64,000 nucleotides of DNA from Prostheceraeus crozeri (Eukaryota; Platyhelminthes; Polycladida; Euryleptidae), in assembly GCA_907163375.1 (NCBI GenBank), contig CAJQUW010001420.1:1054001-1118000 (forward strand), read 5' to 3'. The number at the start of each line of letters is the position of its first letter. Position 1 is the first letter of the stretch. The translations under genes and the position numbers were made by a program. Below the pieces are notes generated by a model, which was given only the letters and a program-made list of their open reading frames with translations, did no database searches and had not been told where the DNA came from. Shown piece by piece: positions 9,070-54,259 of this stretch.

Positions 9070-10761
9070 TCATGAAGTTTTATTAAAATTATTCATTGTT
9101 AGATTCAACAGGCACCAACAAACGAATAGGTCTACGTAACATACATACTCTAGCACCCCAACGACTCGAACAACTGCAGAACGAACAAACCCGTTCCTAC
9201 CAACTTTCCACCGGAGTCTGGGTACGTTTTCATCTACCAACAACACCACATCAACTGTTGGTATAGATAAATCTCCATGAGAATTTCTCCAACCCTTTTC
9301 TCTTAAGGAAGTGACGTCGAGTTTCTGCCAAACTTGCCAAAAACGATTTACAAGACTTTGACGATAGCGGTAAGTGTCGTACAAATTGAGATCTACATGT
9401 ACGTTTTGTATAGGAGTTTGCGGGTTCTGAGTAATTCTCTGTAATATCAGGAAATGATTTGGAGTTAGAGCTGTGCCTTCGTTTTCCTCACCGACGTAAG
9501 TAAGAGATCTCGAGTTTAATATTCCCTCGATTTCTATTACTACCGATTCAAGTTCTTCGTAAGACAGGATTGATTTCTTTATTGTCTTCTTCAGCGATAC
9601 CTTTATTTCTCTGACAATTCTTTCGTAGAAACACCCCATCCATGCTGCCCGCTCAACAACAAATTCCCATCTAATACGTTTTGACGATGCATAAATTATC
9701 ACTGCATCTTCTTCTGAAACTGTTTTTAATTTCTTGAATGCTGCTTTGAAATTTCTGCCATTATCTGAGACTATATTCGGAACTCCCCGACGACTCACAA
9801 ACCGTGTCAAGGCTCGACAAAATCCATTTCCTGAGAGGTCCGGCACAAGTTCCAAATGTATGGCCCTCGTAGTAGCACAAACAAAAAGGCAAATATAACA
9901 CTTCCGGCCTTCCTCCCCATTACTGTGGACGTATAACGGGCCACAGTAACCAATTCCTGTTGTAGAGAACGCCCTTGTCTGACTTAAGCGAAAATCAGGA
10001 ATGTCTGGTACAGCGTTTTGAACATAAGGTTGCCCCTCAATCCTCCGACACCAATGACATCTTCGAAGTATCTTCTTTACAATCTGACGTCCCCGTATGA
10101 TCCAAAAGTTCTCTCTGATTTTAGCAAGCGTGGCCGATACACCTCCATGATATATGGACTCATGAGCATCATTTACTATCAATTGAGTAAACGAATCGTT
10201 CCTTGGTAAGAGAATGGGATTATTTGCTTCAGTAGGTAATGACGATGAAACTCTCCCTTTCGATCTTATAATGCCACGATTGTCCAGAAATAATGTCAAA
10301 TCAATACATAGCTTAGTTTTTCGACCTCCTCTCAAATGCTGCATCTCTGACTGAAAATTCAATTCCTGCATTCGTTTAATCCATATACTTTCCGCTTCCT
10401 CTATGTCTGCAGAAGAGAGGTGTGAGTTTGTTGTTTCCTTTTTCGTAAGTCTGATGAATTTTTTTACCAGCGCTGTCACACGAAGTAACTTTTGAAATGA
10501 TGAAAATCTCTTCATTTCTATCACATTATCAATAGCTTCCAAGACAAAGTTCTGATTGGTTGCAAGGTAAGTATGTGACTCTATTTTCTCTTCTGATGTT
10601 GGTAGATCTAACGAAACTTCAGGCCACAAGTTTGAGCTGTCATGTAGGAAGTCTGGTGCATTCCACCATCTTGAATTGTTCAGTAACTGCAAGGGATTTG
10701 TCCCGCGAGATTGCAGATCCGCGATGTTAAGGTACGTATTTCCAATCCACATTTGGCACAT
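9070..10761 (-). pseudogene. BEL/Pao integrase region
   Basis: 563 open codons. The start overlaps the end of the RNase H/connection frame (IADLQSRGTNPLQLLNNSRW, the BEL linker). The zinc-binding HHCC part is visible: HESIYHGG and, further on, RCHWCRR. The catalytic core follows: FSTTGIGYCGPLYV, then RGVPNIVSDNGRNF, then VVERAAWMGCFYERIVREIK, and a C-terminal domain with VLLVDE...PRLRWKVGRN. The first catalytic Asp, normally in the G-(V/I)-D-(Y/F)-x-GP motif, is Gly here (codon GGT); the second Asp and the Glu are present. Integration activity is therefore expected to be lost. It is out of frame with the upstream RT frame. Confidence 0.88.
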
Positions 10762-12333
10762 TACTCCTGATCTCTAACACTGTGTTCTGAATGAAAATTG
10801 TCCATACCTTACTTTCTTTCAGTATCCAAGTCAACGCAGTCTTACTATCGCACCAACAGAAAACTTTGCTATCAGGGAATAATGGTCTCAAATAGTCGAT
10901 CATACGTGACATTAAAAGACATGCTAAAAGTTCCAAGCGTGGTATAGACATAGACTTTATTGGAGCTACCCTTGATTTGGCCAATAGGATCGAACATGTG
11001 ATTGAGCCATCAGTATATTCAGTTCGTAAATATATCACAGAAGAATAAGCAGCGGATGATGCATCGGAAAATGCGTGGATTTGAATTTCTTTGACGATCA
11101 ATGATGGATCGAATAATTTTCTAGGAATCGAAATGGCGAATTGATCAATTTCACTTTTCCATTTTGTCCACTGGTTCGAAGTTTGCTCATCGACAACCTC
11201 ATCCCAGTGTAGTTTTGACTGAGTAAGACGCTGTAAAAGTAACTTTGGCACAATCATAATAGGACAGATAAATCCCAGTGGATCATAGAACTTCGATATT
11301 TCTTGTAGAATCATTCTTTTGGTAACTGAAGAGCACGCTCTCTCTGAATTTCTGTAGTCAATGAAAAACTCATCCTTTTCAAAATCCCAAGAAACACCGA
11401 GAACTGAAGTCAAGGTTGTCTTATTAGAGACGCTTTCGATATTGGCCACGGTTTCTGATTCAGTAAATGACTTTTCTTCTTCAGTATAGGGTTCGCACTG
11501 ATCGGACACAGTACTTGAAACGTTAGGCATATCAGTTGAACCTCTTATATAATCATCGAGTTCCTTCGAATTACTGAACCATTGCCTGAGGTTAAAACCA
11601 CCAGATCGAAATATTTCTTTACTCAGTAAATACATGTGTTTCGCTTCCGAATAAGTGGAACATCCAGTGATTAAATTGTCGACATAAAAGCTCGTCCGAC
11701 GTTTCTCCACAAAATCGTAATGACAACGGCTAAACTTGTGGAGATGTTCCTGCATGACCCGCTCTAAAATAGATGGGCTGCACGTCAACCTGAAAACCAA
11801 AGAGATATGACGATACATTTCCAATTCACCGTGAGAATTGAGCCACAAAAACCAAAGTGCATCTCGATCCGCCTCGCAGATTTTTACTTGAAGGAACGCC
11901 TTCTCGATATCTGCGGTAACACCAATTGCGTGGAAACGAAATTGCATAGAAGAATTGGTATTAAAGGCAAAGTACATGGGCCAGAGCTTAGGCAGTCGTT
12001 GAGTGAAGGTGTTCTTCTATTTTCTCTGCATGAGGCATCGAATACAATTCTTATTCGCGTTGAGGTCGAGCTCGGGCGGATCACAGGACGATGAGCAAGA
12101 TAATGAATCGGTAACGAACTGTTGTTTACATCTACTTTTTCGATAATGCCATTCTTTAACTGCTGCTGAATAATTTTCTGACATTCTTGATTTAGATCAT
12201 CATCTCTTGCTGAATATACAGACGATTTGTATAGACGTTTCAAAGCCACAGAATAATTAGTAGGAAGAGCCAATTGCGACTTAATCTGTTTCCAAGGTAG
12301 AGACACCGTATAATGACCGTCTGAGAACGACAT
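10727..12333 (-). pseudogene. BEL/Pao reverse transcriptase and RNase H region
   Basis: Two overlapping frames (12,333-11,884 and 11,977-10,727) together cover RT and RNase H, so a frameshift lies near 11.93 kb. The first has the RT start, with RIVFDASCRENRRTPSLND. The second has TADIEKAFLQV (first catalytic Asp), SFYVDNLITGCSTYSEA and FNLRQWFSNS. RNase H follows, with HAFSDASSAAYSSVIYLRTE, IPRLELLACLLMSRM and CWCDSKTALTWIL. The family norm at the RT active site is YVDD; here it is YVDN, which should impair or abolish polymerisation unless some lineages tolerate it. A second frameshift separates this frame from integrase at about 10.73-10.76 kb. Confidence 0.88.
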
Positions 12334-12415
12334 TTCTGGAACAAATGAAGATTCCTCATTGAAGGAATTGATTCCTCTCTGAAGGAATAGCGGGTCCCTG
12401 CATTAACCAGCCCAA

Positions 12416-12886
12416 TCAACTGTTAACAGCGACGAGACTACTATCCTTGCCTCTAATTATCTGATTTCCAAAAACGATGTCATAGTACTGGTCAGCACCA
12501 ATCAGCATGCCGATCTCCAAGTGATTGTCCCTTTCATCGTAAAAATCTGCCAAACCTAAATTATCGAACTGACCTAAAGACTTGACGTCGATCGATTGCT
12601 GATTATTGCAAATTACGTCAACCGTATTTGCTGACAAAGTAATAATTTCGTCAGAGTTAATTTTCTTTATTTGAACATCGACTTTTGAAGATATATGATG
12701 AGTTACATCTTTAGACCCAAAGGTATTGACTGACCAGTGTTCCTCAAATCCAGTCGGAATGTAAAAATAATTACATAAATCTTGTCGTATGTATGTTCTC
12801 GAGCTCGCTGTATCCATGATCAATTTTATCAGGATTTCTGATTTGCCGTCTGGAGATAACAGAACAGCCTTAGCAGTGGGAATCAT
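12416..12886 (-). pseudogene. BEL/Pao aspartic protease region
   Basis: The frame reads IPTAKAVLLSPDG..., then LIMDTASSRTYIRQDLC, then LGLADFYDERDN and LIGADQYYDIV, the order of a BEL-type retropepsin followed by the linker to RT. The catalytic triad should be D-(S/T)-G; the Gly is Ala here (MDTASS), which probably inactivates it. It ends in a stop at 12,416 and is followed by about 80 bp that keep no open frame into RT. Confidence 0.75.
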
Positions 12887-14205
12887 AACATGTCAGTTTC
12901 CACCACATGTGGTCATTACATGTCCTGTCTCTTTGACCGAGTCAACATTAACAACTTGAACTGATGCGGAGTTTTTGTCTGATTCATCATTATTACATTC
13001 CACTTTTTGTTTGCATTTAATAATTGTTGGACAGATTGATATATGATGCGATTTACGAGTAGAGCATCTCTTACAACTTTGCTGGAATTTACAGCTCTTG
13101 GCATTGTGATTTTACTTTAGGCATAAAAAGCATAGTTGCTCTTTTTTAATGAACTCAACTCTATCCTCAAGATATTTCAATTTATCACACCAAGATGACT
13201 TTTGTTCGCCAGCGCAAAATACGCATTTCTTCTTTACATATACATTTTCAACGGAAACTTTATCCGAGGTTGTCAGCGCTATAACGGAACCACACTTTTC
13301 GTTGCTAAGCTTGTCAATTGTTTTTGATTTATTTTCAGAATACTTTAGAGGTGATTATTGCTCTTCTATAGCTTCACGAAACTTAATTTCAATTTCAAAA
13401 TCTTTCAAAAAATCCTCAATGGTCTCAATCACGCAACCAAACCGGGAGCACATTGATAACTGAACATTTTTTCATAATTTAGACAATCACTGGCAATACA
13501 ACCCTCTCGTATGAATCACACTCAACGCCTAGCCTGTGTAAACTACGAGTATGGAATTTCAAATTATCGTAATAATGACGCATATGCTCAACATTCTCAG
13601 ATAAACAAGACCCCTCCTGTATAGTACGCAAGTGATCATTAATAGCACTCTGAGGGGACCCAAACCGATCACGCAAAATGTCAACAGCAATACTGAAATT
13701 ACTATCAACTAGGTTCATTCCCGCTATGGCAGCCTTCGCAGTGCCTTTTAGACACGAATGCAAATAAACAAACTTCTGCACTTCAGATAAAGTAGGGTTC
13801 TTTATAACAGCAGTACAAAATATATCATAGAAAGACCGCCATTCCATTTTATTACCTGAGAAGGTAAGTAACTGCAAGTTTGATTGAGGACGATTCAGAA
13901 ACAGTAGCTTTAGACTTTATCATATTATCAATTTCAACCAGAGTAGATTGAATCTTCAACTTATAATTCAAACTTTCCTCTATTTCTGAATCGATCTCAT
14001 CATCCTCACACTCATTTACAATAAGCTGATCAAAATGTTCTAACCTGGTTAAATCACGACTGAGGTTAGTCTTAATAGCTTCCATATGATGAGATGGAAG
14101 TCTATCACTTACACGGTTGATACACTTTGAAACTGCAGTCTGCACGGCTCCTCGTTGCTTCACCAAAGTCGCTTTATCCATCTTGAAATTCGCGAGATTC
14201 TCCAA
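12887..14205 (-). pseudogene. BEL/Pao gag with zinc knuckles, broken
   Basis: The matrix/capsid part is split into two frames. 14,205-13,852 starts MENLANFKMDKATLVKQR. 13,877-13,479 contains LLTFSGNKMEWRSFYDIFCT and YLHSCLKGTAKAAIAG, typical of BEL gag (the LPxFSGD...EWxSFxDxF block). Further down the same strand the nucleocapsid can be read in pieces. It has CVFCAG..., EQLCFLCLK and CKRCSTRKSHHISIC, the Cys/His clusters of BEL zinc knuckles. A TAA interrupts the frame at the EEQ/SPLKYSENKSK junction (about 13.35 kb), and frame changes occur near 13.86 and 13.46 kb. No full Gag can be made from this copy. Confidence 0.8.
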
Positions 14206-15541: not shown

Positions 15542-16005
15542 TTAAGCATAGAAATGAAACTTTTCTTTTTTCTCTCTGTGGTATTTACTGCATTGAGGAG
15601 GCAATTGATATATCGCTGCGGCCATAAATTTTACCTCAACCTCACTAGCACAAGATGCTATGTGCTTGCTTACGTTTAGGATGGCATAATGCGGATGTAA
15701 TATATGTTGCCTATAAATCGTTATTCTCGTCCTAAACATTCCACCAGTTTGGCCGATATAAAACTGATGACAACCTTTGCAAAAAAGAGTTAAGATTCGA
15801 TTTAATATTGAAGGTTCTTAAAACGTTTTGTTACTTTAAAATCGACACTCTCTCCCACAAGCAAGCAATTACAACAGCTACATCTGGGTTCACCACACTT
15901 CGTTATACCGTTTATGATTTCTTTGTTATTTCTGTTTAATATTCTATACAAGTTTTTAGGTTGTTTGTATGCTTTTATAATTCGACTGTTTTTTAAGGAA
16001 TCCAT
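15542..16005 (-). pseudogene. Penelope-like element GIY-YIG endonuclease region
   Basis: The minus strand encodes the PLE linker, ITKCGEPRCSCCNCLLVG, in the frame of 16,005-15,802. After a stop and frame change comes the nuclease: LFCKGCHQFYIGQTGGMFR followed by TRITIYRQHI and SEVEVKFMAAAIYQLPPQC. The YIGQTG..RTR block and the preceding CxxC are the second half of the GIY-YIG motif and its Cys neighbourhood, as in Penelope-type retroelements. The GIY half is poorly preserved. No reverse transcriptase is present in the copy, so it is a 5'-truncated and inactive fragment. Confidence 0.75.
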
Positions 16006-16055
16006 TAATCTTAAAGCCCCTATAGTAGGAGCGATTACCTCATTACTTCATTCTT

Positions 16056-16190
16056 AGTGAGGTTGAGGTAAAATTTATGGCCGCAGCGATATATCAATTG
16101 CCTCCTCAATGCCGTAAATACCACAGAGAGAAAAAAGAAAAGTTTGTCATTTCTATGCTTAAACCTCCACTGAATAAGAATGAACATTAA
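16056..16190 (+). pseudogene. Second PLE C-terminal fragment, opposite orientation
   Basis: The plus strand reads SEVEVKFMAAAIYQLPPQC, continues through KYHREKKEKFVISMLKPPL, and stops at TAA 16,188-16,190. It is the mirror copy of the fragment on the left arm and keeps the frame slightly better: the left copy has a shift at KEKFHFYA. Confidence 0.75.
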
Positions 16191-16247
16191 AATATCCATG
16201 CATATTTTGTATTATGTTGTTTGATTTAAATATAATTTCATTCCCTT

Positions 16248-16283
16248 TGACAAGCTCTAGGAGTGAGCAGAAACGCGTCAGGG
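16248..16283 (+). ncRNA. Degenerate hammerhead-ribozyme-like motif of the PLE (also 15,421-15,457 on minus)
   Basis: Both arms contain GACAAGCTCTAGGAGTGAGC followed by AGAAACGCGTC. Penelope-like elements are known to carry hammerhead ribozymes in their terminal repeats, with a CTGATGA core followed by a short stem and GAAAC. Here GAAAC and flanking helices could form, but the core reads CTAGGAG. If this descends from such a ribozyme it is probably inactive. Assignment rests on position and partial motif only. Confidence 0.35.
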
Positions 16284-16799
16284 AATAAGATTTCTCAGTT
16301 TTCCTTGGAGCCTTTTTTGGAATTTATAATTTTTTCCATTTTGGATTCTACTATTTTATATATATATATATATAGAAAGATGATAAAGATAATCCAATAG
16401 GAAAGGCAATCGCTTTCGTAGTGTATGAGCACGAACAATAGCGCTTTGGTACATTTTGTTATTCTCGTTCCGTACATCGCTTTCATAGTCAAAATCAGCC
16501 AGCTTTCGTACTCTACAGTCTACAGTGTACATGCAAATTGATTTGACTTTCTTTATTCTTTTGATGAGGAATTGCATCGAAGATGTGCAACAAAGTTTCA
16601 TTTTTGATGTATTACGGTATGCTATTTTGCTTGGATACACAGTTTGGCATTAATTAACTTTATTCTCTTTAATTTAATGCAGGGTTATACGCCTGCCTAT
16701 AGACAGATCGTGTATTAGACAATCCAGATGATCGTACATGCATCAAAGCAAACTTTCAGCTGATAGCATCATCTGTCGTGTAATCACTTCAATGTTATT

Positions 16800-17580
16800 A
16801 TTGTATAGCGAATTTATGATGAAAAGCTGGGGATTTTTAGGAAACCCAATGACATTATTTTCGTCATTCCACAAGAATAAAAAATCTTCAATCTCTTCAA
16901 AAGTTTAAGTGCCTGACATAATCAACAATATGCATTTGTAAAGAATGGTGTATCATTTGCTGTCCATTAAAAAGTTTCATAGAGAGCTGAATTTTTCAAA
17001 TGACATAATTTTGATGTTCATGAATATTTTGTTGGCCTACAATCAACAGCTTAAGTGGCCATATAGAATCCAAATGCTGTATATCAACGTAAAATCTACC
17101 CTAATGACATCGGTAGTCCTACAATCACTTCAATGTGGTCATGGCAAAACGATATCGCGAGGAAAATAAAGTTGATTTTAGGAAACGCAAAACGTCATTC
17201 CATGACAATTGAAAATCTTCAATTTTTTCAAAAGTTAGAGTGTCAATACTTAGTTGCAAAGGAGGACTCCGGGGCAACATTCATTGTCTTTACTTAAAGA
17301 ATAAGTCTATTATAGGGCAGACTTTTTCAATTGAATGACATGATAAAATTGAGGTGTTTCATTTGCATCATTACACGACAATTGAAGTTTTCTGCCAAAA
17401 TGACAGGTTAGATGGTTCGTTAAACGAAATAATTTTACTTCAGGTTAGACAATATGGGTACATGCTGTCCATGAAAATTTCTGCAAACCATTTCTAAAAG
17501 CATTGGAAGATATCATAATATTCGTGTCAAAATAGGTAAAATGATAAAATCGTCATTCCACGACGATAAAAATGGACAGA
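16800..17580. repeat. Degenerate ~170-bp period repeats
   Basis: Variants of (A)TCGTCATTCCACGACAAT...AAAATCTTCAAT recur at about 16,858, 17,203, 17,370 and 17,545; gaps of about 345, 167 and 175 fit one or two units of roughly 170 bp. A second landmark, TGCTGTCCAT(T/G)AAAA, recurs at 16,961 and 17,464 (about three units). A third, AATGACAT(A/G)AT, recurs at 16,998 and 17,333 (two units). Outlying relatives lie at 8,660 and 14,556. This is an old, diverged tandem array, not a gene. Confidence 0.5.
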
Positions 17581-24071: not shown

Positions 24072-27000
24072 ATATTTATATTTAGATTTAAAATACAGAA
24101 ATAAACATATTAAGGAAACATTTTTTGGCAATGCTATCCAAATTCATCTCTGTAGATACCGAGAGAGAGAGAGTAACAAAATAAAATATTCCCTCTTGTC
24201 TGAAGTAAAGCATGAAGCATGCAGGTAGAAGTAGTGTAGGGCGAAACGCAGCGTCTTCTAAGGAATTTATTGCTTACATTGTTCAAGCAAAGTAGAGGAC
24301 ATCTTTGCAACTAATGCAGAAATCATTGGATATTCTACTCAGAATCACAGCAGATATTTAAACAAGTTCTTTGAGTAAAGCAAGTTCTTTTGCAACATAA
24401 CAAGGTACAGTAAAATTAAGGTTCATTACAGCGATTTCAAAAAGCTGTGTTAAACTTTGTCCTTCAGTGGAATATCTTTAAAAAAACGCATGAAGTCGGA
24501 CCGCGTGTTCGTTGCCAAGTGACCTCACTAAAGCTGACGCACAAGTAGGAATGTACGAGAGAACGAAGCAACCGCGAGATGAATACATCACTGCATGATG
24601 ACATGATGCTATATTTGGGAATGCTTGTATAATTCAAGTAATCTAATGTGTATTATGTTATGATATAATGTAAGTACCTGTATAGTATTGTTAATTAGGA
24701 CAATTTTTCTATTCAAACGCGAATCAATAAAAGGTTGAAATCATTCTGATCAATAACCATAAACAATATAATCAATATAAGCATACCAATAGTAAAACAC
24801 AAGCATTATAATATAAGCCTGTTTGCCACATCATCAGTTATATACACGTATATAGTTTCCCACATAATAAAAATCCAGCCGGTGATATATGAGATTTAAT
24901 CTAAGCTTTTAACAAAAGTCAGATGCGTTTGACGTTTCGCCACAAATAATGTTTTTTTGTTCTCATAAACATATTTTATTTCCCTTCACCAAGCAGAAAA
25001 TATCACACAGATTAAAGCAGTCATAATTCCGATTGTACATTTTATTGTTTATCATAGCATATGGTCAGCATTCGCAAGGTTATGCATTAAAAACTTACCA
25101 GTCTTAACAGCAACATGAAAACCTATGAAAATCATTTCTACTGCTGAATTTATGTTTTACAAAATGTGAGTGCATCTACTGCATATTTAAAACCAAAATA
25201 ACACTGATGGACATGTGAAATAATGCTAATTTCCAATGTCATTAACATGTGCATTTGATTTGATTGCGTTTGATATCTATCAAATTTCTATTTTTTTGAT
25301 GATCAACACTAGCTTGCGCATTTTGTATCTGATAGCTGCGATAACAGATACAAAAGCCGTTTGAAGTAGCTCTCATAACATATGTAGTTTCGCTGCTTAA
25401 TCTGACCCATTAATCTGACCCAAATTGAAAATGATTCTCTCAGGAATTAGCAATAAATTATATTCTTATTATTTCTTACATTTCTTCGTTTTCCCTATTT
25501 TCAACTGACAAATAATCGCTATACATCAATTGATTGTCTGCAGGAGCAAGAAGCATTATTTAAGAGAAGAAATCACCACAATATGAAAGAATCTTGTTCA
25601 CTAATTTCGCTAAAACGCACAATGTTGAAGACTATTTGCGGAATTTGCTCAAATTTACTTCCCGATTCCCGCACCAATTCAAGTATATGTTATCATCCGA
25701 CAATCCATGGAGTCGCCTGCTAACAAACATGTGAATTGAATTATTACGCAAACGTGAGTTCAAGCAACACTTCCTCACGGGTGGAAGACTCTAGCAGCAA
25801 TTATGAATAAGAATAGATGAAAGCAAATACAACTCAGAAAGCTCTTAATATTTTCTCTTCAACTTATGCAATGATGGAAGAATTCTCATAATTATATTTG
25901 AAATTTTGTACTTTTGTCCCAATAGATGTTCGCGAATTGAATGGATATTAATAACAATCCCTTGACAGAATTATAACAAGTTTAATCAAAATTACGTATT
26001 CCGGACAGGATTGTTATATTTCAAATCTCAGCTGGCAATTCACTTTCTCAAAGTGTTATTCATCAGGACATTTATGGCAGCTTGCGGTCTGCATACTTGT
26101 TTAGGATAAATGTCGATATGTCTCCTCTCTAAGGTGATGAATCACATCAACTTCTTCAATTCCAGTTCAACTTGCACTTTACGAACGTAATACTCTGACC
26201 ACGCATTTCTTCGAATTTACAGTCTTGATGATACTTCGTTAGCAAACGTCAGTGCAATCTGTGCTGAAGTTCGGTATCAACATCGACAACACGCACACTA
26301 AAAACGTGTTGATAAGTATTTGCATTTGTTTATGTGTGTTTACAAATACATGCAATGATGTTCAATATTTCTCAACGTCGATCTATCTGTCGGATTATAG
26401 TGCAAGCTATTTCTGAAATAAACAGCTACTGCAAAAATAGATGAAAATGAAATTTATTGCTAAAGTAATTCAATATCTCAATTTGTGAAGCAATTAAATC
26501 TTAGTGAGATCGGTAGTGGTAGTGCATCTAAACAATGAGGAATCAGATATCAGAGAAATACAGACAGTTACTTAAAGAGCAAATTAAAAGTTATATAAGT
26601 GAATCAGGCAGTGCACAACTGTCATCATTTGGAGGTAGCGAATCCTCCATCTTAGATTCATGCAAATCAGATTTGTATCTCTCCATCACAAGCGCTTGTA
26701 AAGTGCGCAAATGAGTCTGTTATAAAGTTAACATAGCATCATTACGGGTTTCACGTGATACAGAATACCAACACTGATCATCGCAATAGAGAAGATTCTT
26801 AAAAATAATTGACTATGATATTATGAATGAAAAGGGAATTGTACATTTTTGTATGCAAATATTCAAAAAGGTGGCATGTACCTACAACAATGTCACAAAA
26901 ATGTAGGTCGAATGAAAACTGCGTCTCTGATTAAGTCAACTGCAGCTTCTGAAGTTATACTGCTCGGCTTGGCGCATCTTTGGTTGTTCCGACTGACACA

Positions 27001-37699: not shown

Positions 37700-38593
37700 G
37701 AAACCGCCTCAACACAATGTTGGGAGTATGCTTGCTTGCATTGAGATAGTTAAGTGGCTCTGAATTCAACCCAGATAAAGATTTTTGAAAACACATGTAA
37801 AGTGCATGTTGTCTGTTATTGCATTACAAATATATCGTGCAGAAATATTACAATAACTGCTCATTCAAATGAATGAATGCACCATATTACGAGGAATAAT
37901 AGTATGTTTTTTTTCACTTGGGAACCACTCTGTAGTATAAAACGGACAATACCACTTATAAACCTGCTATGAACTGTGCTTAAAAGTTATTGCCATTATT
38001 CACAAAATAACTGCATAGATGCATTCATGGACGAACGAACATGTTAATATGTCAATGGTGTGTAAGTGATTTGAACTGGCTTGACTTCTCAAATTTGAAG
38101 TACTTACCCCATCCCGCATGGCTAAAATCAATAGGGTTAAACTAGCAACCATGTGACTTGTCTTTAATGAACATTACAGCTTGCGTCTTGAGAGGAAGAA
38201 TTATCTATCATGTCAGTATGTCTGTTAAAGCATCATTTGTTAATGAGCCTTTCAAGGAACAAAGACTTGTATTTCATATTTCATTATATACAAAGATTAT
38301 ACGCGTAAAATACTGCTTCTGGCAGCGAACTTTCTAGGTTACATTCAACTGTCTTAACCTTCAAAAAATACTTTATTGAATTTCATTCTTGATAGCTTTT
38401 CCACTCATAACTGATGAAACAGATTCAAAAAACACTCAACACTTTTGCAGGACACATGACAAAGATGAGATTTTAGCCATAGCATTGCATTAAGTCTCGA
38501 CCCGGTGGAGTATTTTCCTAAATGATGGGGAGGGCAAATCCCGTGACACCTCCAGATCTTCCAAACTAAACAGAGAATCTACACATTAGGATG
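37700..38593. other. Non-coding stretch
   Basis: No gene or repeat boundary recognised. Confidence 0.4.
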
Positions 38594-39341
38594 GGAGCTA
38601 CAGACACTTTCTTTCTAAATTCGCGCACAAAGGGCTTAATGACATGGATTTGTAGATCTTGAAACGCTGAATACAAAAATCAAATTCTTGAGTGTCACAG
38701 CCAGTCGCTTTCGGTTACAGGGAATGTTAAAGGATTCCCATTGGAATCCAATGGTAAAATTCAAGAAATGTCTATGCATTGTGAAACACTTGGCAATTTT
38801 CGTACATTTTCTTTTGCAGAAAAGAAACTATTTATCAGAATGACATGGAATTTGAAACATGATTGAGTTCAGAACATCAACGTCGATATAAAAGTTGAAA
38901 TGAGTCACATGATTCAGTATTTGATGTCTGAGAGACTCTACAAAATTAGTAAAATTCATGTTTTGACTTAATTTTGGCGATTTTATTCATTTTGTAGAGG
39001 CTCTCAAACATCAAATACTGAATCATGTGACTCACTTCAACTTTTATATCGACGTTAATGTTCTGAACTCAATCATGTTTCAAATTCCATGTCATTCTGA
39101 TAAATAGTTTCTTTTCTGCAAAAGAAAATGTACGAAAATTGCCAAGTGTTTCACAATGCATAGACATTTCTTGAATTTTACCATTGGATTCCAATGGGAA
39201 TCCTTTAACATTCCCTGTAACCGAAAGCGACTGGCTGTGACACTCAAGAATTTGATTTTTGTATTCAGCGTTTCAAGATCTACAAATCCATGCTATTAAA
39301 CCCTTTGTGTGTGAATTTAGGAAGAAACTGTCAGTAGCCCC
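38594..39341. repeat. Near-perfect long inverted repeat (foldback)
   Basis: The left arm (38,594-38,955) and right arm (38,980-39,341) are inverted copies of about 360 bp with a 24-bp spacer. In the central 300 bp I count only three differences, all transitions. Similarity falls toward the outer ends. It has no coding content. A transcript across it would fold into a long double-stranded RNA. It may be a foldback/MITE-type element or a recent inverted duplication; no target duplication was seen. Confidence 0.95.
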
Positions 39342-40053
39342 CAAAGTGTGTGTAATACATTTCTGGTCTGGCAAAATCAGATCTGTCATCCGTCAATGAT
39401 GAATAGCATTTTGAAGTTTGAATTTGTATTCTTTGGAAAATTTGTTTGATTGGCAACATGGTGAATTTGATCATTAGATAGAGTTTTCAATCTGTCACTT
39501 TCGACATGAATTGTGTCATAATGATGAATTTGTATCCTCTCAGAGAAATTTAGATATTGATGTCGAAATGATTGATTGACTGAATAAAACTCAAATAAAG
39601 CACATGAGAATTCATATAATTATGTCTAAATCGTCAATTTATCAATCTCATTTCCAAATTCATTCTAAACAAATAGAAGTGACTTCAACATTGAGTGAAA
39701 AGGATTACATTGATAATCATCACCAAAAAAGTTAATTTTTCGTGAGTGATCAGAAAGATTGCTGAATAATTTTCTTACACATAATTGCTGAAAACACTTA
39801 TACATTTAGCCGGTGAGCGTAGATAAGACATGCAATTCAAACATTCGTGTGCACTCATAAATCATTATGTGAAGTCAATTGATTGACAGATATAGTAATT
39901 TCAAATCAAATTGAAGTAGCCAATACCATCAAATAATATTGAAAATTAAAAAGATAATTTTACAAATGTACTTTTAAGTGAAGGTCATTTATTTTGACTT
40001 TCCGACAAAATGAAAATTATTTTGTCAGCATAAAAGAAATACGTAAAAGGTAT
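39342..40053. other. Non-coding stretch
   Basis: AT-rich, no gene recognised. It lies downstream of the giant exon on the minus strand and is probably intron of that gene. Confidence 0.4.
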
Positions 40054-40831: not shown

Positions 40832-43800
40832 CTGAAATGGCACAGTCTTCAAAAGTTGCTAGTTGTGGAGCCTCCAAGCAGTGCCATCGGCAGCTGTCAC
40901 CAATGTACCAGGATTCGGAGTAGAATGCTTCATCGTCGATGAAAGGCACGTCGTACAAGTCAGCATCTAGCAGACGACTATCTACTTTTGTAGGAGTTAC
41001 AGAGTCAGGAAAGAGGTGGTCGTCATTCACACATTTTAAGTTCAATTGCTTAGGACAATCTTTGGATTTTGACACTGGAAGCGATAAATGTACGTTGCGG
41101 TCAGAGAGCAGCTTTGTATTTGGAATATTTTCCACTACCTCAGACACTACCGGAGAAACAGAAGATTCGACGGTCGTCTCAACCGTTATTTCAATGCTCG
41201 GTTCGACTTTTTCCTCATTCTTGTTTTCTTTGTCTTCGTTGCACTTTGCTTCATCCTTTTCTGACACCTTTTCTTCAGTTTCAACGTCAGGAGAGTCTTT
41301 CTTTGAATCTGCATCCTTCATGGATTTTGAATCTTTCTTATTCTTCATCTCCTCTTTCTTCTTATCTTCCTTTAGAGAGTCACTCTTCTTAACCTCATTC
41401 TTCTTGTCTTCTTCGAGCGAGCCACTTTTCTTAACTTCCTCTTCCTTTTCCTCCTTGAGGGAGCCACTTTTCTTAACTTCCTCCTCCTTTTCCTCCTTGA
41501 GGGAGTCACTCTCCTTAACTTCTTCCTCCTCGAAGGAGTCACTTTTCTGAACTTCTTCCTTCTCTTTCTCCTTAAGAGAGTCACTTTTCTTAATCTCGAT
41601 CTTCGTTGTCTCTTTTGAAGGTTCCTCCTTTTTATCATCCTTCTTCTTCTCTTGCTTTTGCTTTTTCCTCTTCCTGTTTCTTTTCTTGTTTTTCTTCTGA
41701 TTCCCCTTCTTCTTATTAGGATCTTCTTTAATATCACAGCTTATACCCGCCTCCACAGAAATGGTAGAGTCTCTCTGTGTAGATTCGGCACTCTCTTCTT
41801 CAGCAGGTGTTTTTGCTTTGTCTTTGTCTCCCGAGCATTCAGCGTTATCTTCTTTGTTTACATCAGCTGCGATATCTTCTTCTCGTATCTCTTCTTCTAC
41901 TTTGACTTCTGATGCTTCATCAGGTTTGGCTTGCTCTGATGATGTTTGCTCTTCCTTTTCCTTATCTGAATTAGATTCGTTTGTTTCTTGTACAAAAGTT
42001 TCATGCAAATCCGATTTCGTCCCTTCCACGTTTTCTTCTGATACTGCTTCTGCCATTTCTTCTTCTGTTGCTGCTTTTGTCACTTCTTTTTCTTCCGCCA
42101 CTGTTTCTGTCACTTGTACTTCCGTTACTATTTCTGTTACCTTTTCTTCCTCTTCTCCGGCCGATGAGACACATTCTTCATTCGGCTCCTCGGGACTGTC
42201 CTTCACTTCATCATCCTTGATCGAGGATTCTCTTTTCTCTACAGCTTCAATTTCAAATGAATCAGATTTCCTCTTGTCAAGAGATTTCTCGATTTCACCT
42301 TCATCATTTTCTTTTTTCTTTTCTTTCTTCTTATCTCCCTTCAATGAGTCTTTTTTCTTCTTATCTTTCTTCTTGGATTCTCTTTTCTTTAAATCTTTCG
42401 CCTTCTCTTCTTCCTCTTTCAAATTCAAAGACACTCTTTTCTTTAATTCCTCCACCTTCTCTATATCTTGTTTCAACCTCAAAGATTCTCTTTTCTTTAT
42501 CTCTTTCTTGCTCAATGAATTGGTTTTCTCAGATTCTCCTGAAGATCCTTCACCACTTTTCATCAATGAATCACTCTTTCTTTTTTCTTCTTCGTCATCT
42601 TTCTTCTTGTCTGTTTTCATATATTCCTTCTTTCGTTGTTCTTTCTTTTCTTTTTCATGCAAAGAGTCTCTTTTCTTTAATTCTTTCGCCTTCTCCTCTT
42701 CCTCTTTCAACCTCAAGCTCTCTCTTTTCTTTAATTCTTTCGCCTTCTCCTCTTCCTCTTTCAAATTCAAAGACACTCTTTTCTTTAATTCTTCAGCCTT
42801 CTCTATATCTTGTTTCAACCTCAAAGATTCTCTTTTCTTTATCTCTTTCTTGCTCAATGAATTGGTTTTCTCAGATTCTCCTGAAGATCCTTCACCGCTT
42901 TTCATCAATGAATCACTCTTTCTTTTTTCTTCTTCGTCATCTTTCTTCTTGTCTGTTTTCATATATTCCTTCTTTCGTTGTTCTTTCTTTTCTTTTTCAT
43001 GCAAAGAGTCTCTTTTCTTTAATTCTTTCGCCTTCTCCTCTTCCTCTTTCAACCTCAAGCTCTCTCTTTTCTTTAATTCTTTCGCCTTCTCCTCTTCCTC
43101 TTTCAAATTCAAAGACACTCTTTTCTTTAATTCTTCAGCCTTCTCTATATCTTGTTTCAACCTCAAAGATTCTCTTTTCTTTATCTCTTTCTTGCTCAAT
43201 GAATTGGTTTTCTCAGATTCACCTGAAGATCCTTCCCCGCTTTTCATCAATGAATCACTCTTTCTTTTTTCTTCTTCGTCATCTTTCTGCTTGTCTGTTT
43301 TCATATATTCCTTCTTTCGTTGTTCTTTCTTTTCTTTTTCAAGCAAAGACTTTCTTTTCTTTAATTCTTTCGTCTTCTCCTCTTCCTCTTTCATTCTTAA
43401 AGACTCTCTTTTCTTTAAATCTTCCGCCTTCTCCTTTTGCTCTTTCAACCTCAGGGACACTCTCTTTTTTAATTCTTCAGCCTTATCTATTTCTTCTTTC
43501 AACCTCAAAGATTCTCCTTTCTTTATCTCTTTCTTGCTCAATGAATTTGATTTATCAGATTCTCCTGAAGATCCTTCACCACTTTTCATCAATGAATCAC
43601 TCTTTCTTTTTTCTTCTTCGTCATCTTTCTTCTTGTCTGTTTTCATATATTCCTTCTTTCGTTGTTCTTTCTTTTCTTTTTCATGCAAAGAGTCTCTTTT
43701 CTTTAATTCTTTCGCCTTCTCCTCTTCCTCTTTCAACCTCAAGCTCTCTCTTTTCTTTAATTCTTTCGCCTTCTCCTCTTCCTCTTTCAAATTCAAAGAC

Positions 43801-46800
43801 ACTCTTTTCTTTAATTCTTCAGCCTTCTCTATATCTTGTTTCAACCTCAAAGATTCTCTTTTCTTTATCTCTTTCTTGCTCAATGAATTGGTTTTCTCAG
43901 ATTCACCTGAAGATCCTTCACCGCTTTTCATCAATGAATCACCTCTCTTCAAGCTTTTATCCTTCGGATCACTCTTTCGTTTTTCTTTCTTCTCATCTTT
44001 TTGTTCTTCGTCATCTTCCTTCTTATCTTGTTTCGCACTTTCCTTCTTCCGCTGTTTTTTCTTTTCTTTTTCAAGCGAAGACACTCTTTTCTTTAATTCT
44101 TCCACCCTCTCTATATCTTGTTTCAACCTCAAAGATTCTCTTTTCTTTAACTCTTTCTTGCTCAATGAATCACCTTTCTTTAAGCTTTTATCCTTCGAAT
44201 CACTCTTTCTTTTTTCTTTTTTCTCATCTTTTTCTTCTTCATCTTTTTTCGATCTTCTTCTCTCTAATAGTCGGTCGATTAGTGAATCTCGTTTCTTTAC
44301 TTCCGTCTTCTTTCTCATTACGACAGGTTCAGATGAGTCTTCATCACTTTCTGCTTCTTCCTTTTCATATTTTTCGTCAGCTGTTGCAATTTCTGTTATT
44401 TCCTTCTCAGCAGATGCTTCATACGTTTCTTCAGCTGTCTCTTCATCTGTCTTCACTCCAAACCTCTTTCCTGTAGGTGACTCATCATCAGGGCTCTTAG
44501 CGGATGCCTGGATGTCGTCATCGAGAATCTTTTCGCTAACATCCTCTAGAGATCCATTGCTATTTTCTTCCACTTTCTCCAGAGCAGACTCTTCTTCATT
44601 GAATTCCTTTGGCAACTCGACTTCATCTTCCGTAGCCATTTCTTGAGACTCTCGGTTTACCTTGAGATCATGCTCGGTTGAGTTCGACATTTGCTCAAGG
44701 ATGAAATACTCTGCAGCACTGAGGGCAGTCTCAAAGCTCTTGTCTTCACCCTCATGAGTAGTGTCATCTTCTTTCTTTTCCGACTTCTGTGTTTTCTCAT
44801 CACTCTTCTGTTCCTCAGTCTTCTCTGTGTCCTTTTCTTTCTTCTCACTGCTGTCTTTCTCTTCTTCTTCCTTTCTTTCAGAGTCCTTCTTATCACTTTT
44901 ATTTTTCGATTCTTTATCCTTCTTCTTCTCTCGCTTTGCTTTAGATTTCTTATCGCTTACCTTCCTCTCCTTGCTTTTACCTCTGTCTATCTTCTCATTC
45001 TCTTTCTCACTCAGGCTGTCTTCCATTGCTCTATGATCCTTGCCGTTGGTATGAGGCATAACGGGCATGTTTTCTTCCCCGCTGATTGGCTTGTGCGAGC
45101 CGTTGACCGCTACCTTGACCACCCCGTTGCTCTCCGGTGCCTTCACAGGTTGGTTGCCCATTGCAGAATGTTGTGCTGTATGATAATCACTGTCTTCGAC
45201 GCAGTTGACAGGTGCAGACGGCGATGCGACGTCAGACGTTACGTGTGATTGTGTGTTGTCACAATGAGATGCTTCACGCAGGTTCAACTGAGCGCTTGAA
45301 GCGAAGGAGATTTCGTTATCGTTGTTGCTGGCTGGTTGAAGTTCAAATACAAGAGCAGTATGGGAGGAAGCGTTCCCCATTTCCATTTGACGAGAAAGTT
45401 CCCCTATATCGCTCGATGAACTGTATTCCCCATAGTTCCCTTCTTCCACGGTGCCACAACAATCATTTCTCTCTCTTGCCCAATTTGAATTCTGTCTTGA
45501 TGGGGTCACTGACAGAGTTTTTCTCTCTTCATCTGAGGCTAGCATGTTTTCTCGTGAGCAGCCGGCGTTGAGACTAAAACTGGACGAGGCTTCAGTAGAT
45601 CCGTCTCCCTTGTTCCTAACTCCCATAACACAAATTGCACACGCGTTGTCCATGTCACAGCTGGTTCGGCGTGAGATCTCCGTGAGGGATTGAGCACCTA
45701 GAGGAGCACCTATTGGTTGACCCATTTCGTAGTATGTAATTTCCGCAGCGTATATCTCACTCACACGTGACGCCGAATTGCGTCTAAGGTCAGCATCGTC
45801 GACGACGACACGCCCGAGATCGATACTACGTCGACGAATAGTCGACATGGGGAGACTATAGGCCCGGGAATTGAAGCGACTAGTAGGGAGGTCGTCTACC
45901 GGTGGAGGGCAGTTGTTCGACGCACCGCTAGATTGACGATAAACTTGCATCTCAATTTCGAATGGAGATCGCGAGTCAATAGTTTCAATTTCATCGATGG
46001 TCTCCAACTCTTTGGCTGTGTAGTACGCGGTGTCGGTAGGCAAGGCATACAATCCTTCTCCTTCATCTATTTCCTCTTCCTCTTCCTGCACGGCGGCTTG
46101 CCATTGATGGGTACTGCCCTCCATGATGGTACAGCTTGGCAGTTGGGGCAAAGACATATCGGACTCATCTGCCATCTCTTCATTCAGGAGAGTTGATTGT
46201 TTGACCAACAGACGGGCATCCTTCATTTGAAGCCGCCCCTCCCTCCCTTCCGCCACCTTTCCCTCATCTGCGGACAAGCCGCAGCTGTCTGATCCAGCTA
46301 TCATCTCCTCACCCGATTCAGAAGATATTGAGCGAGTGTCCGGACTGCTGGACGATTGCACGATTTCTCCGACTTCTTCTGGAGATTCGATAGGACTGGC
46401 CGAGGTTTCGGGAACCTCCGGGATAGCCTCAACGACTGCTTCATCCGTCGCTTTTGCAGGCATTGACTCACTGGCAAAGTCCAGTTCTATAGAGTCGTAA
46501 GAATATTTTCTCTCACACTCTGCATTTTGTGGGAAGGCGTCCTCAGTCTCCTCTTCGATAGGAGTACTGACGGTTCGATGGTAGACAAAGGTATCTTCCT
46601 CAGCATCTGAATAATCGCTACGAAATTCTTCCACCAATTCCAAGGAGTCTTGGATCATCAATTTCCCGAATCTGTGCACACTGGGTCGTCTTGGAAAGTC
46701 CATCTCCGTATCTTCAGCTACCGCGGTATCCGAATTGTCATCATCCATGTCTAAAGAATCCTTCGCGAAGGAAGCACCGCTGGCGAGTTTTGGAGGACGC

Positions 46801-47085
46801 GGATGAGACGCACGTCGAGGAGGCGTCTCAGAAGTAAAACTGGTAGCAACGGAGTTGTGGGGTGTCGCAGACTCTGCAGCAGAACTTGGTTTGTTCTCGA
46901 AGCTCGCCGGCTCGATCGACAAGAAATGGGATATCAAGTCAGGATTCTCTTTGCGAAGATCGCCGATCGAAATGAAAGAATATTCGGCGTCCAAGTTCTC
47001 CCAGTTAGTAGCGACACGAAATACTTGTCTTTCTACATTGACATTTGGCAGATCTAGGACTCGGTTGGTCGAAAAATGTTCCCAT
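40832..47085 (-). CDS. Giant internal exon encoding a charged Lys/Glu-repeat protein
   Basis: A 6,254-nt exon with 2,084 uninterrupted codons. The acceptor TTTTTTTATTACAG ends at 47,086 and the donor CATTTCAG/GTGAGT begins at 40,831. No ATG occurs in frame for the first hundred or so codons, so it is an internal exon. The N-terminal part reads EHFSTNRVLDLPNVN, ERQVFRVATNWENLDAEYSF, then is acidic and Ser-rich with Pro and basic Ser sites (STIRRRSIDLG). The second half is a Lys/Glu/Ser-rich region with a 114-aa tandem array and, further on, short EEEVKKSGSLKEEK repeats. It ends in an ordinary segment (SRLLDADLYDVPFIDD, RWHCLEAPQLATFEDCAIS). Predicted: long charged helices, cytoplasmic or nuclear; no signal peptide or membrane segment seen. 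Such giant exons occur in cytoskeletal proteins (MAP1, ankyrins, titin relatives), but I cannot assign a family. Confidence 0.9.
41370..41600 (-). repeat. Short in-frame repeats within the giant exon
   Basis: Four to six units of 13-14 residues of the type EEEVKKSGSLKEEK (about 42 bp each), each with a KKSxSL serine block. They are separate from the 342-bp array and lie C-terminal to it. Confidence 0.85.
42400..43950 (-). repeat. 342-bp (114-aa) in-frame tandem array in the giant exon
   Basis: The landmark GAAGATCC recurs at 42,541, 42,883, 43,225, 43,567 and 43,909, exactly 342 bp apart each time. There are four full units and a partial fifth. Each unit starts SLMKSGEGSSGES, then SLSKKEIKKRESLRLKQDIE, and ends KKEQRKKEYMKT. 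Inside each unit an 18-aa element is repeated (KKRVSLNLKEEEEKAKEL, KKRESLRLKEEEEKAKEL, KKRDSLHEKEKKEQ). The copy between 43,225 and 43,567 is clearly more diverged than the others. Flanking sequence toward 44,170 holds older, partial relatives. Confidence 0.95.
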
Positions 47086-47435: not shown

Positions 47436-47583
47436 CAATTTCAATATCCAATTTAAAGACATTGCTATTTTTCAGACAAATTAGCTGTTGTGATTTTTAC
47501 ATGAATATGCAATTTCAATATCCAATTTAAAGACATTGCTATTTTTCAGACAAATTAGCTGTTGTGATTTTTACATGAATATG
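47436..47583. repeat. Perfect 74-bp tandem duplication
   Basis: Two identical 74-bp units (47,436-47,509 and 47,510-47,583) with no mismatch, so a very recent duplication. It lies in the presumed intron upstream of the giant exon. Confidence 0.97.
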
Positions 47584-48124
47584 CTCTCAGCAGTCGATGG
47601 GAACATGCAGTTTTATCAAATTTGAAATATGTACTGATTCATGCAAGAAGTCCACTTATAAAATTGACACATCAATATTATCATGTGTTTGAGCATGGAT
47701 ATGAGCGCATTGATGTAATAAAGTGAAATAAGTTTTATTGATTGAAGTCATACAATTTCTGTCATATCTCTATGACATAGTGAGAGTGCAGCAAAGACAA
47801 AATATGCCGCTGCATATTTTTGCTGACTATGCCCGTCAAGGAGACTCGGAAATTAAGAAGCATTTTTTAATTACTGTCATTGACCTCAGATTCAGTATTC
47901 TTTATCAGCTAAATAGTACAGATCAACGGTGGATCGTAAATTATGCGAATAGCTAGCACGAAGTTGTGCAGAGTACGAGGTCGTACCTGAAGCTTTCACT
48001 TAACCCCCTCAATTCTCCCTGGAATTCGATGTTTTTAAACGTCCATGTGTTAAAAGTTAGCACATTGTCTTTGCACAGTATAGCATTTATCATAGCCAAA
48101 TATACTATTTCCAAGTGGGATGAT
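47584..48124. other. Non-coding stretch
   Basis: Only short frames, none with a recognisable domain. Confidence 0.4.
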
Positions 48125-48331
48125 CATAATTCTGGTAAACATATTTTCGAAAAAAAACACCACTTGTGATCATAAAACAGTTGAATTTTCGCGAGCTTTC
48201 GACCGCTCTCTGCTGTTTTAATCATGCGATTAATGATCAAGACAGCAGAGAGCGGTCGAAAGCTCGCGAAAATTCAACTGTTTTATGATCACAAGTGGTG
48301 TTTTTTCGAAAATATATTCACCAGAATCATG
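48125..48331. repeat. Inverted repeat with ~95-bp arms
   Basis: The arms at 48,125-48,219 and 48,237-48,331 are nearly identical inverted copies (CACCACTTGTGATCATAAAA ... CGCGAGCTTTCGACCGCTCT) around a short loop. The right arm contains TGATCAAGAC ... GGTCGAAAGCTCGCG, partly like a hammerhead core and stem II. This may be a Penelope-type terminal fragment, but that is weak. Confidence 0.9.
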
Positions 48332-53986: not shown

Positions 53987-54259
53987 TCAACGTCACCTGT
54001 TCCTTTGTTAACTACGACAACTTTCCATTCAACTTTTGAGCTAGATTCGAGGCTTGCAAGTAGAGTCCATTCTGTTTTCTCCGGACATGAAAGCGCCACG
54101 TTTTCTTGTGTATTTTGTTCATTTTTCCAAAAGCCCAAAGCTGCACAATCTCCTCTGATCTGAACTTCCATATTTGGGACTTCCGGTATATTGCGAATAA
54201 CGAACTGAACCAAAACACATGAGTTGGCCTCCATGATATCGAAAATTGAGGATTGAAAC
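53987..54259 (-). CDS. First coding exon of a CBM20 (starch/glycogen-binding) gene
   Basis: The exon has an acceptor (CATTTTGCAG at 54,260) in the 5' untranslated region, an ATG at 54,234-54,232, and a donor GA/GTAAGT with the intron starting at 53,986. The 83 coding residues fit a CBM20 domain: VLVQFVIRN, then QIRGDCAALGFWKN, then ALSCPEKTEWTLLA and VEWKVVVVNKGTGDVE. These follow the domain's β-strands with the G(S)CxxLGxW loop and the W/Y-K-x-V strand; the carbohydrate-binding W(E) block should start the next exon. In animals a CBM20 right after the start Met is found in laforin and in GPCPD1, both acting in glycogen or phospholipid metabolism. The short CxALGxW form resembles GPCPD1 slightly more, but one exon cannot decide. 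Later exons were not found to the left. Confidence 0.75.

Follow-up and report, generated by a model that had tools for sequence, protein, structure and literature searches.

A tandem array lies at 42.4-43.95 kb of the 64,000-nucleotide stretch of Prostheceraeus crozeri DNA that we analyzed (the window), raising the question of what protein carries it and whether its regularly spaced kinase-type sites could have a regulatory role or simply reflect duplication. A preliminary description had noted five landmarks at exact 342-bp spacing, and we confirmed that the array exists in this form. TRF reported a 342-bp (114-codon) unit in 4.6 copies on the minus strand (42379-43949), with 94% matches and 0% indels. 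The five MKSGEGSSGE landmarks, which start on the minus strand at 43931, 43589, 43247, 42905, and 42563, are in frame and give four spacings of 114 codons each. Unit 1 (43590-43931) consists of a hinge, four 18-mers, and a KRKS segment, and units 3 (42906-43247) and 4 (42564-42905) encode the same protein (114/114 residues). Since the DNA of these three units matches at 340-341 of 342 bases, they probably arose by recent duplication. Unit 2 (43248-43589) is diverged, sharing 98/114 residues and 311-313/342 bases with units 1, 3, and 4 and lacking one of the five sites. Unit 5 (42379-42563) is partial, with two 18-mers, KKRES, and then K-rich sequence, and shares 67/114 residues with unit 1. 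The hinge, MKSGEGSSGESEKTNS (43884-43931 in unit 1), is unchanged in units 1, 3, 4, and 5 and carries two changes in unit 2. A shorter pre-array with two 18-mers and KRKSD segments occupies 43950-44288 of the same strand.

The layout of a unit is four 18-mers (72 residues) followed by 42 residues that contain one further site and the hinge. As a result, the 18-residue rhythm previously assigned to the sites holds for the four 18-mers but not for the unit as a whole, in which spacings run 18, 18, 18, 30, and 30 residues (114 in all). When we searched the genome with the array unit at E ≤ 0.001 (138 candidates scored), all 6 matches fell in the one exon that carries the array. DNA matches to the array on contigs C7076 and C10125 (9 of 12 matches) were rejected as low-complexity purine tracts with many frames open on both strands. 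A protein match on C10798 (E 9.6), which adjoins frames judged LINE-like by eye, was also rejected.

With three near-identical units, the copy number or the near-identity itself could be an artefact of assembly. However, the diverged unit 2 separates unit 1 from units 3 and 4, and the array spans just 1.57 kb, while the N50 of the P. crozieri genome reads is given as ~30 kb in the part of the genome report available (PMC9469890). For these reasons, we regard an artefact as most improbable.

The array sits inside a single 6.25-kb minus-strand coding exon (47085-40832; 6254 bp), an open frame with predicted borders tttattacag (acceptor) and CAG|gtgagt (donor). The exon joins in phase to an upstream minus-strand exon (53987-54234; donor GA|gtaagt) that contains most of a CBM20 domain, while the 6254-bp exon supplies the final residues of that domain (WEHFSTNRVLDLP...) and a long tail. 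As the splice sites fit the consensus and the phases match, the two exons are probably spliced at the 53987/47085 junction. Together they encode CBM20 (Pfam PF00686) at 40.1 bits (E 3.3e-10, profile positions 2-89 of 97); the upstream exon alone scored 29 bits against a cut-off of 23.3. We took the Met at 54234, six residues ahead of the CBM20 match, as an assumed start; the open frame reaches back to an acceptor (tttgcag) immediately before it, and a further coding exon may lie upstream.

Membership in CBM20, missed in the preliminary description, is the strongest functional clue, and from it we infer that the protein may bind starch or glycogen. By eye and without an alignment, the CBM20 exon contains ALGFW, and we take the Trp of LGFW to be the conserved glucan-binding residue, going by an LGxW pattern. 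A second CBM20-like exon elsewhere in the genome carries LGDW. In PDB searches with the CBM20 part, STBD1 appeared only at E 0.033-0.062, behind PERK (0.00038-0.0014). The PERK matches (E 0.0014 and 0.00038) are nominally significant, and designed kelch repeats reached 1.4e-8 from six stacked ~5-bit pieces; in both cases the alignment departs from the domain, and we judged these matches to be chance.

The 6254-bp exon contains 2072 open codons, counted from an internal TTG, and Pfam found no domain in it, either whole or as three pieces. The tail begins with an acidic, non-repetitive part (45660-46810, minus strand) containing five RRxS and one RKYS, whose Ser codons begin at 46808, 46682, 46502, 45827, 45776, and 45662. 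A second, short-period repeat of the KKSDSLKEE type, identified from TRF (periods 33, 42, and 75) and the translation, lies at 41361-41593 on the same strand. We did not find the 3′ exon among the 11 minus-strand frames compared with Pfam, which were drawn from 205 frames of at least 40 residues in 1-40834; those that matched were retrotransposon. The segment 26594-26719 is coding-like and has an acceptor; its phase gives no direct fit, and it had no Pfam match.

The basophilic-kinase motif (R/K)(R/K)xS had been proposed as a recurrent feature of the array, and its abundance was borne out. Residues 900-1560 contain 30 such sites, compared to 9.4 ± 2.8 in shuffled sequences, with 0 of 5000 shuffles reaching 30. 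With the array reduced to a single copy, which left 292 residues, 15 sites remained against 4.4 expected (0/5000). The unrepeated first 600 residues of the tail contain five RRxS against 0.28 expected (0/5000). Enrichment was not clear in residues 600-900 (2 sites versus 1.06; 1449/5000) or 1560-2055 (4 versus 1.79; 505/5000), and thus two of the four stretches are enriched. Over all 2055 residues, [RK]RxS followed by a hydrophobic residue occurs 21 times, compared to 0.39 in 300 shuffles. The array motif is mainly K-R-x-S-L: in a table of flanks covering 26 of the 42 sites, K occupies -3 in 26/26 and R -2 in 25/26, and K occupies +4 in 19/26 of the array sites tabulated. Compared to RRxS, the classical PKA motif, it is weaker, and it is presumably about as close to sites of the Aurora or PAK type.

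The 18-mers were compared as 20 copies, 12 of them distinct, leaving out the degenerate unit 5 slots 5.3 and 5.4. K1, K2, S5, and K9 never vary, and R3 is present in 11/12; a basic residue at i-3, Ser at i, and Lys at i+4 are kept in all 12 distinct 18-mers. The array has 27 basic(i-3)-S-basic(i+4) triads (9.3 expected; 0/3000), and 10 remain after collapse to one copy (3.9 expected; 5/3000). The first 600 residues showed no enrichment of the triad (1 versus 0.55). LIR-like motifs were at chance level (4 versus 5.0 expected).

Our crude helix model agreed with the K/E-rich, helix-prone character attributed to the array, with a score of 0.705; 12 shuffles gave 0.446 ± 0.054, and the first 245 residues scored 0.025. 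In one stretch of 82 residues, the placement of charge pairs surpassed that in 1988 of 2000 shuffles. In the model, helices of ~95 residues are separated by Gly/Ser hinges of low helicity, an arrangement that fits better than the single helical spring or bundle suggested before. Overall, the earlier interpretation was partly supported. At 3.6 residues per turn, an 18-mer completes five turns, which in a straight helix would put the serines of the 18-mers on the same face. Could the array helices instead form coiled coils or bundles, so that the protein oligomerises on glycogen? A hydrophobic stripe with a best period of about 3.55-3.6 speaks for this, but hydrophobic residues are few in sequence so rich in E and K. 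The hydrophobic moment of a 72-residue stretch separates periods 3.5 and 3.6 poorly (5.02 versus 5.6) and is compatible with a coiled coil. We consider oligomerisation by this route very unlikely.

We also asked whether the array could have expanded in tandem under little or no selection, within a disordered tail rich in K and E, with a periodicity inherited from duplication and without a specific regulatory role. The regular site spacing is what duplication would produce, three units differ by only 1-2 of 342 bases, and the same exon has other low-complexity repeats. Unit 2 retains 4 of 5 sites, which is unremarkable, since 653 of 2000 neutral simulations (kappa 2) retained at least 4. On the other hand, the 30 base differences between units 1 and 2 cause 16 residue changes, compared to 22.1 under neutrality at kappa 2 (17 of 2000 simulations were as low), a result that weakens to 70/2000 at kappa 4. 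These differences introduce no stop, while 1715 of 2000 neutral simulations had one. Ser was retained at 12/12 positions, with 160 of 2000 simulations doing as well. The site Ser codon is TCT or TCC in 17 of 20 copies and AGC in 3. A pooled dN/dS (NG86) used 7 of the 20 18-mers, and NG86 ignores transition bias. These comparisons give signs of purifying selection on the array. Together with the site enrichment that persists in the collapsed array and, outside the repeats, in the first 600 residues, they make purely neutral expansion somewhat unlikely in our view.

The explanation that we favor, at a probability of roughly 40%, is a CBM20 protein tethered to glycogen whose array of charged helices acts as a phospho-switchable electrostatic switch; glycogen binding, helix formation, phosphorylation, the switch, and its partners are all proposed from sequence. 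The N-terminal CBM20 domain would bind glycogen, and the long tail would be mostly disordered, with the array as a recently expanded part. Each unit would form a highly charged helix of ~95 residues followed by a short Gly/Ser hinge, and KKRxSL(x2)K sites on one helix face could be phosphorylated by a basophilic kinase of the PKA, PKG, Aurora, or PAK type. Residues 900-1560 contain 237 K+R and 180 D+E; with all 30 sites phosphorylated, the net charge of this stretch would fall from about +57 to roughly zero, and the basic(i-3)-pSer-Lys(i+4) triad could give the helices added stiffness. The array could thereby let a glycogen particle bind or release acidic partners, such as its own acidic flanks, microtubules, actin, or membranes. 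A more speculative version, which we hold to be doubtful, is that the glycogen-bound helices can be locked by phosphorylation, with about twenty triads five turns apart on one face of rigid, hinged rods, such that cAMP-type signalling alters the charge and stiffness of the coat of a glycogen particle and natural changes in copy number alter the gain of the switch.

An alternative is that the array is a spacer or cytoskeleton-binding rod, a single alpha-helix as in caldesmon or INCENP, with CBM20 as the glycogen tether and phosphorylation incidental. Its basic net charge, E/K pairing, and helix prediction would suit a rod, and microtubule binding has been reported for the INCENP helix in the part of that study available (PMC4571873). 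However, a rod leaves unexplained both the RRxS excess in the first 600 residues, which are acidic and separate from the array, and the fact that Ser never varies among the 18-mers, and we consider it unlikely.

If our favored explanation of a glycogen-tethered electrostatic switch holds, glycogen binding and a multisite electrostatic and helix-stabilising phospho-switch are combined in one polypeptide, and the array offers a natural 18-residue, five-turn repeat series in which the tuning of charged helices by phosphorylation could be tested. The findings also point to an unusually arranged CBM20 protein in a flatworm-like animal. No protein of such design was among the literature matches listed, as judged by titles and the starts of abstracts.

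Laforin and GPCPD1 also have an N-terminal CBM20, but the Pfam search of the 6254-bp exon, which does not extend to the 3′ exon, found no phosphatase or GDPD domain. The glycogen-targeting subunits of PP1, such as PPP1R3A, combine CBM21 with an RVxF motif, whereas here Pfam identified CBM20 rather than CBM21, and the 6254-bp exon has no RVxF; nonetheless, PPP1R3A resembles the present protein in having a glycogen-binding domain and a long tail with basophilic-kinase sites. STBD1 is a short protein with CBM20 at its C-terminus. The present protein is similar in that it would be a CBM20 glycogen-associated adaptor, but it differs in that more than 2000 residues follow the domain, which is thus not C-terminal. 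The accessible part of one STBD1 study describes an N-terminal hydrophobic stretch and a conserved Trp, W293, corresponding to laforin W32 (PMC4076837).

Caldesmon contains a single alpha-helix domain. As far as the available portions of the sources describe them, such domains in INCENP (PMC4571873) and in designed proteins (PMC5347031) are, like the array, R/E/K-rich and helix-prone with i,i+4 charge pairs; the array differs by adding a Ser-kinase motif every 18 residues and a Gly/Ser hinge every 114. For TACC3, the available part of the report describes an Arg(i-3)-pSer-Lys(i+4) triad that stabilises a helix on phosphorylation (PMC9022996). The array shares with this triad a basic kinase motif and Lys at +4, but it has many sites where TACC3 has one, and Lys replaces Arg at i-3, making the correspondence close rather than exact.

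The minus strand of the window contains an open frame of 2072 codons, counted from an internal TTG from which residues are numbered below. Within it we recovered the 342-bp in-frame repeat and five equally spaced landmarks of the preliminary description: TRF gave a period of 342 bp, 4.6 copies and 94% matches without indels at 42379-43949, and MKSGEGSSGE occurs five times at intervals of exactly 114 codons. Units 1, 3 and 4 encode identical protein, with 1-2 base differences in 342; compared with these, unit 2 has 16 changed residues out of 114, and unit 5 is a partial copy. The 18-residue periodicity proposed within each unit holds in part. The 18-residue elements (18-mers) are present, but since kinase-type sites are spaced 18, 18, 18, 30 and 30 residues apart per unit, the elements fill just 72 of 114 residues. 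Ahead of the array, at 44288-43950, stands a smaller form containing two 18-mers, suggesting that the array grew from a smaller repeat. Searching the 2.05-Gb assembly with an array unit (138 candidates scored), we found six matches at E ≤ 0.001, all inside the exon that carries the array. Elsewhere in the assembly, contigs C7076 and C10125 carry purine-rich tracts of kilobase length with many open frames on both strands, possibly satellite or an assembly product.

The array-bearing exon (the big exon; 47085-40832, minus strand; 6254 bp) has the acceptor tttattacag and the donor CAG/gtgagt. Its splice signals and frame suggest splicing to an upstream exon at 54234-53987 (minus strand, Met at 54234 assumed), whose donor, GA/gtaagt, is in phase with it. 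Joined in this way, the exons contain a CBM20 domain: their N-terminus matches Pfam CBM_20 with E 3.3e-10 and 40.1 bits (cut-off 23.3) over profile positions 2-89 of 97, and in a whole-genome scan the upstream exon by itself exceeded the cut-off with 29 bits. A second CBM20-like exon, on contig C9891, scored 24.6 bits with one TAG within the match. Because the frame is open upstream of the assumed Met as far as an acceptor, an earlier coding exon is possible. Counted from that Met, the two exons comprise 2167 codons plus one base, and at least one more exon must follow downstream. We did not find this 3′ exon among minus-strand frames of at least 40 residues in 1-40834 (11 of 205 run in Pfam). 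A small coding-looking frame at 26594-26719 (minus strand; acceptor ttataacag, ending in a stop) is a possible 3′ exon whose phase is mismatched with the big exon. The big exon had no match in Pfam or PDB, and three pieces of it had none in Pfam. Its inferred upstream intron holds an inverted repeat (48141-48317; 85-nt arms, 92%, 7-nt spacer) and an exact 74-bp tandem duplication (47436-47584).

The window also contains a BEL/Pao retrotransposon (9073-13916, minus strand; Pfam Peptidase_A17 at E 3e-48, integrase zinc-binding, DUF5641 and DUF1759), a Tc1/mariner-like transposase frame (5159-5935, plus strand; HTH_Tnp_Tc3_2, E 1.7e-8) and a long inverted repeat (38592-39343; 364-nt arms, 96% complementary, 24-nt spacer) that looks like a fold-back element. 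On another contig, C6227, a COX1 frame (15936-17282) gives its best fit when AGR is translated as Ser, and it has ATA codons at sites where we take the conserved residue to be Ile, which fits the echinoderm/flatworm mitochondrial code. Mitochondrial genomes known from such animals are shorter than that 100.7-kb contig.

Divergence between units 1 and 2 points to constraint on the protein. Their 30 base differences change 16 residues, while neutral simulations with as many differences, run at kappa 1, 2 and 4, changed 23.3, 22.1 and 20.8, and reached as few as 16 in 1, 17 and 70 of 2000 runs (same order here and below). Unit 2 has no stop; 1834, 1715 and 1447 simulations had one. All 12 serines of unit 1 are kept in unit 2, matched by 136, 160 and 215 simulations. 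Keeping four of the five kinase-type sites, as unit 2 does, is unremarkable (493, 653 and 732 simulations). NG86 ratios, computed on 7 of 20 18-mers and ignoring transition bias, gave an overall value of 0.37, with 0.13 in KKR.SL and 0.51 elsewhere, and point the same way. We compared 20 18-mer copies, of which 12 are distinct, setting aside two degenerate slots in unit 5: K1, K2, S5 and K9 are invariant, and R3 and L6 are each present in 11 of 12. For this Ser, 16 copies use TCT, one uses TCC and three use AGC; between the two codon types lie two or more base changes over which Ser was kept, although the three AGC copies probably derive from one event.

In two of the four stretches counted, kinase-type sites are enriched beyond what duplication would give. 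Residues 900-1560, which include the array, contain 30 (R/K)(R/K)xS sites against 9.4 ± 2.8 in shuffles (0/5000 as high), and counting the array as one copy leaves 15 against 4.4 (0/5000). RRxS also occurs five times in the unrepeated first 600 residues (0.28 expected; 0/5000), and these sites did not originate in the array. Kinase-type sites were not clearly enriched in residues 600-900 (2 versus 1.06) or 1560-2055 (4 versus 1.79).

With 3.6 residues in each turn, 18 residues span five turns, so the 18-mer serines would align along one face of a helix, ~27 Å apart (1.5 Å per residue). In a crude helix-coil model whose parameters were set by hand, mean helicity of the array was 0.705 versus 0.446 ± 0.054 for 12 shuffles; outside it, values were 0.025 and 0.055 (two segments within the first 600 residues), 0.132 (700-900) and 0.146 (1780-2025). 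The model gives each unit one ~95-residue helix, with an interruption at the Gly/Ser hinge GEGSSGE. The arrangement of i+3/i+4 charge pairs in one 82-residue stretch beat 1988 of 2000 shuffles. The hydrophobic moment peaks at ~3.55-3.6, compatible with a coiled coil too.

Residues 900-1560 carry 237 K+R and 180 D+E, about +57, and most of the 100-residue blocks to both sides of them are acidic; phosphorylation of all 30 sites, counted as two negative charges apiece, would lower the net charge to about -3. According to Batchelor and co-workers (PMC9022996), Arg(i-3)-pSer-Lys(i+4) stabilises helix in model peptides and pThr has the contrary effect. Every 18-mer compared has a basic residue at i-3, Ser at i and Lys at i+4. 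Across the 26 tabulated array sites, position -3 is Lys in 26 and position +4 is Lys in 19, a close but inexact match. Basic(i-3)-Ser-basic(i+4) triads number 27 in the array against 9.3 in shuffles, and 10 against 3.9 with the array as a single copy (5/3000); the first 600 residues have one against 0.55. Enriched sites, the predicted charge shift and the near-triad make a phospho-switched glycogen scaffold the most likely working: the protein would bind glycogen through CBM20, and its charged rods, predicted to be helical, would be switched by a putative basophilic kinase, presumably with a partner.

We consider the array a real in-frame repeat showing signs of constraint, inside a probable CBM20 protein. 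Among the entries listed in our searches of open-access literature there was no protein of such design, which is weak evidence of absence. STBD1 has a different layout. The catalytic domain of laforin or GPCPD1 is not seen in the two exons, and the RVxF of PP1 glycogen-targeting subunits is absent from the big exon. The array may be likened in its working to a single alpha-helix domain and is a candidate for one. The design is unusual and its components are known.
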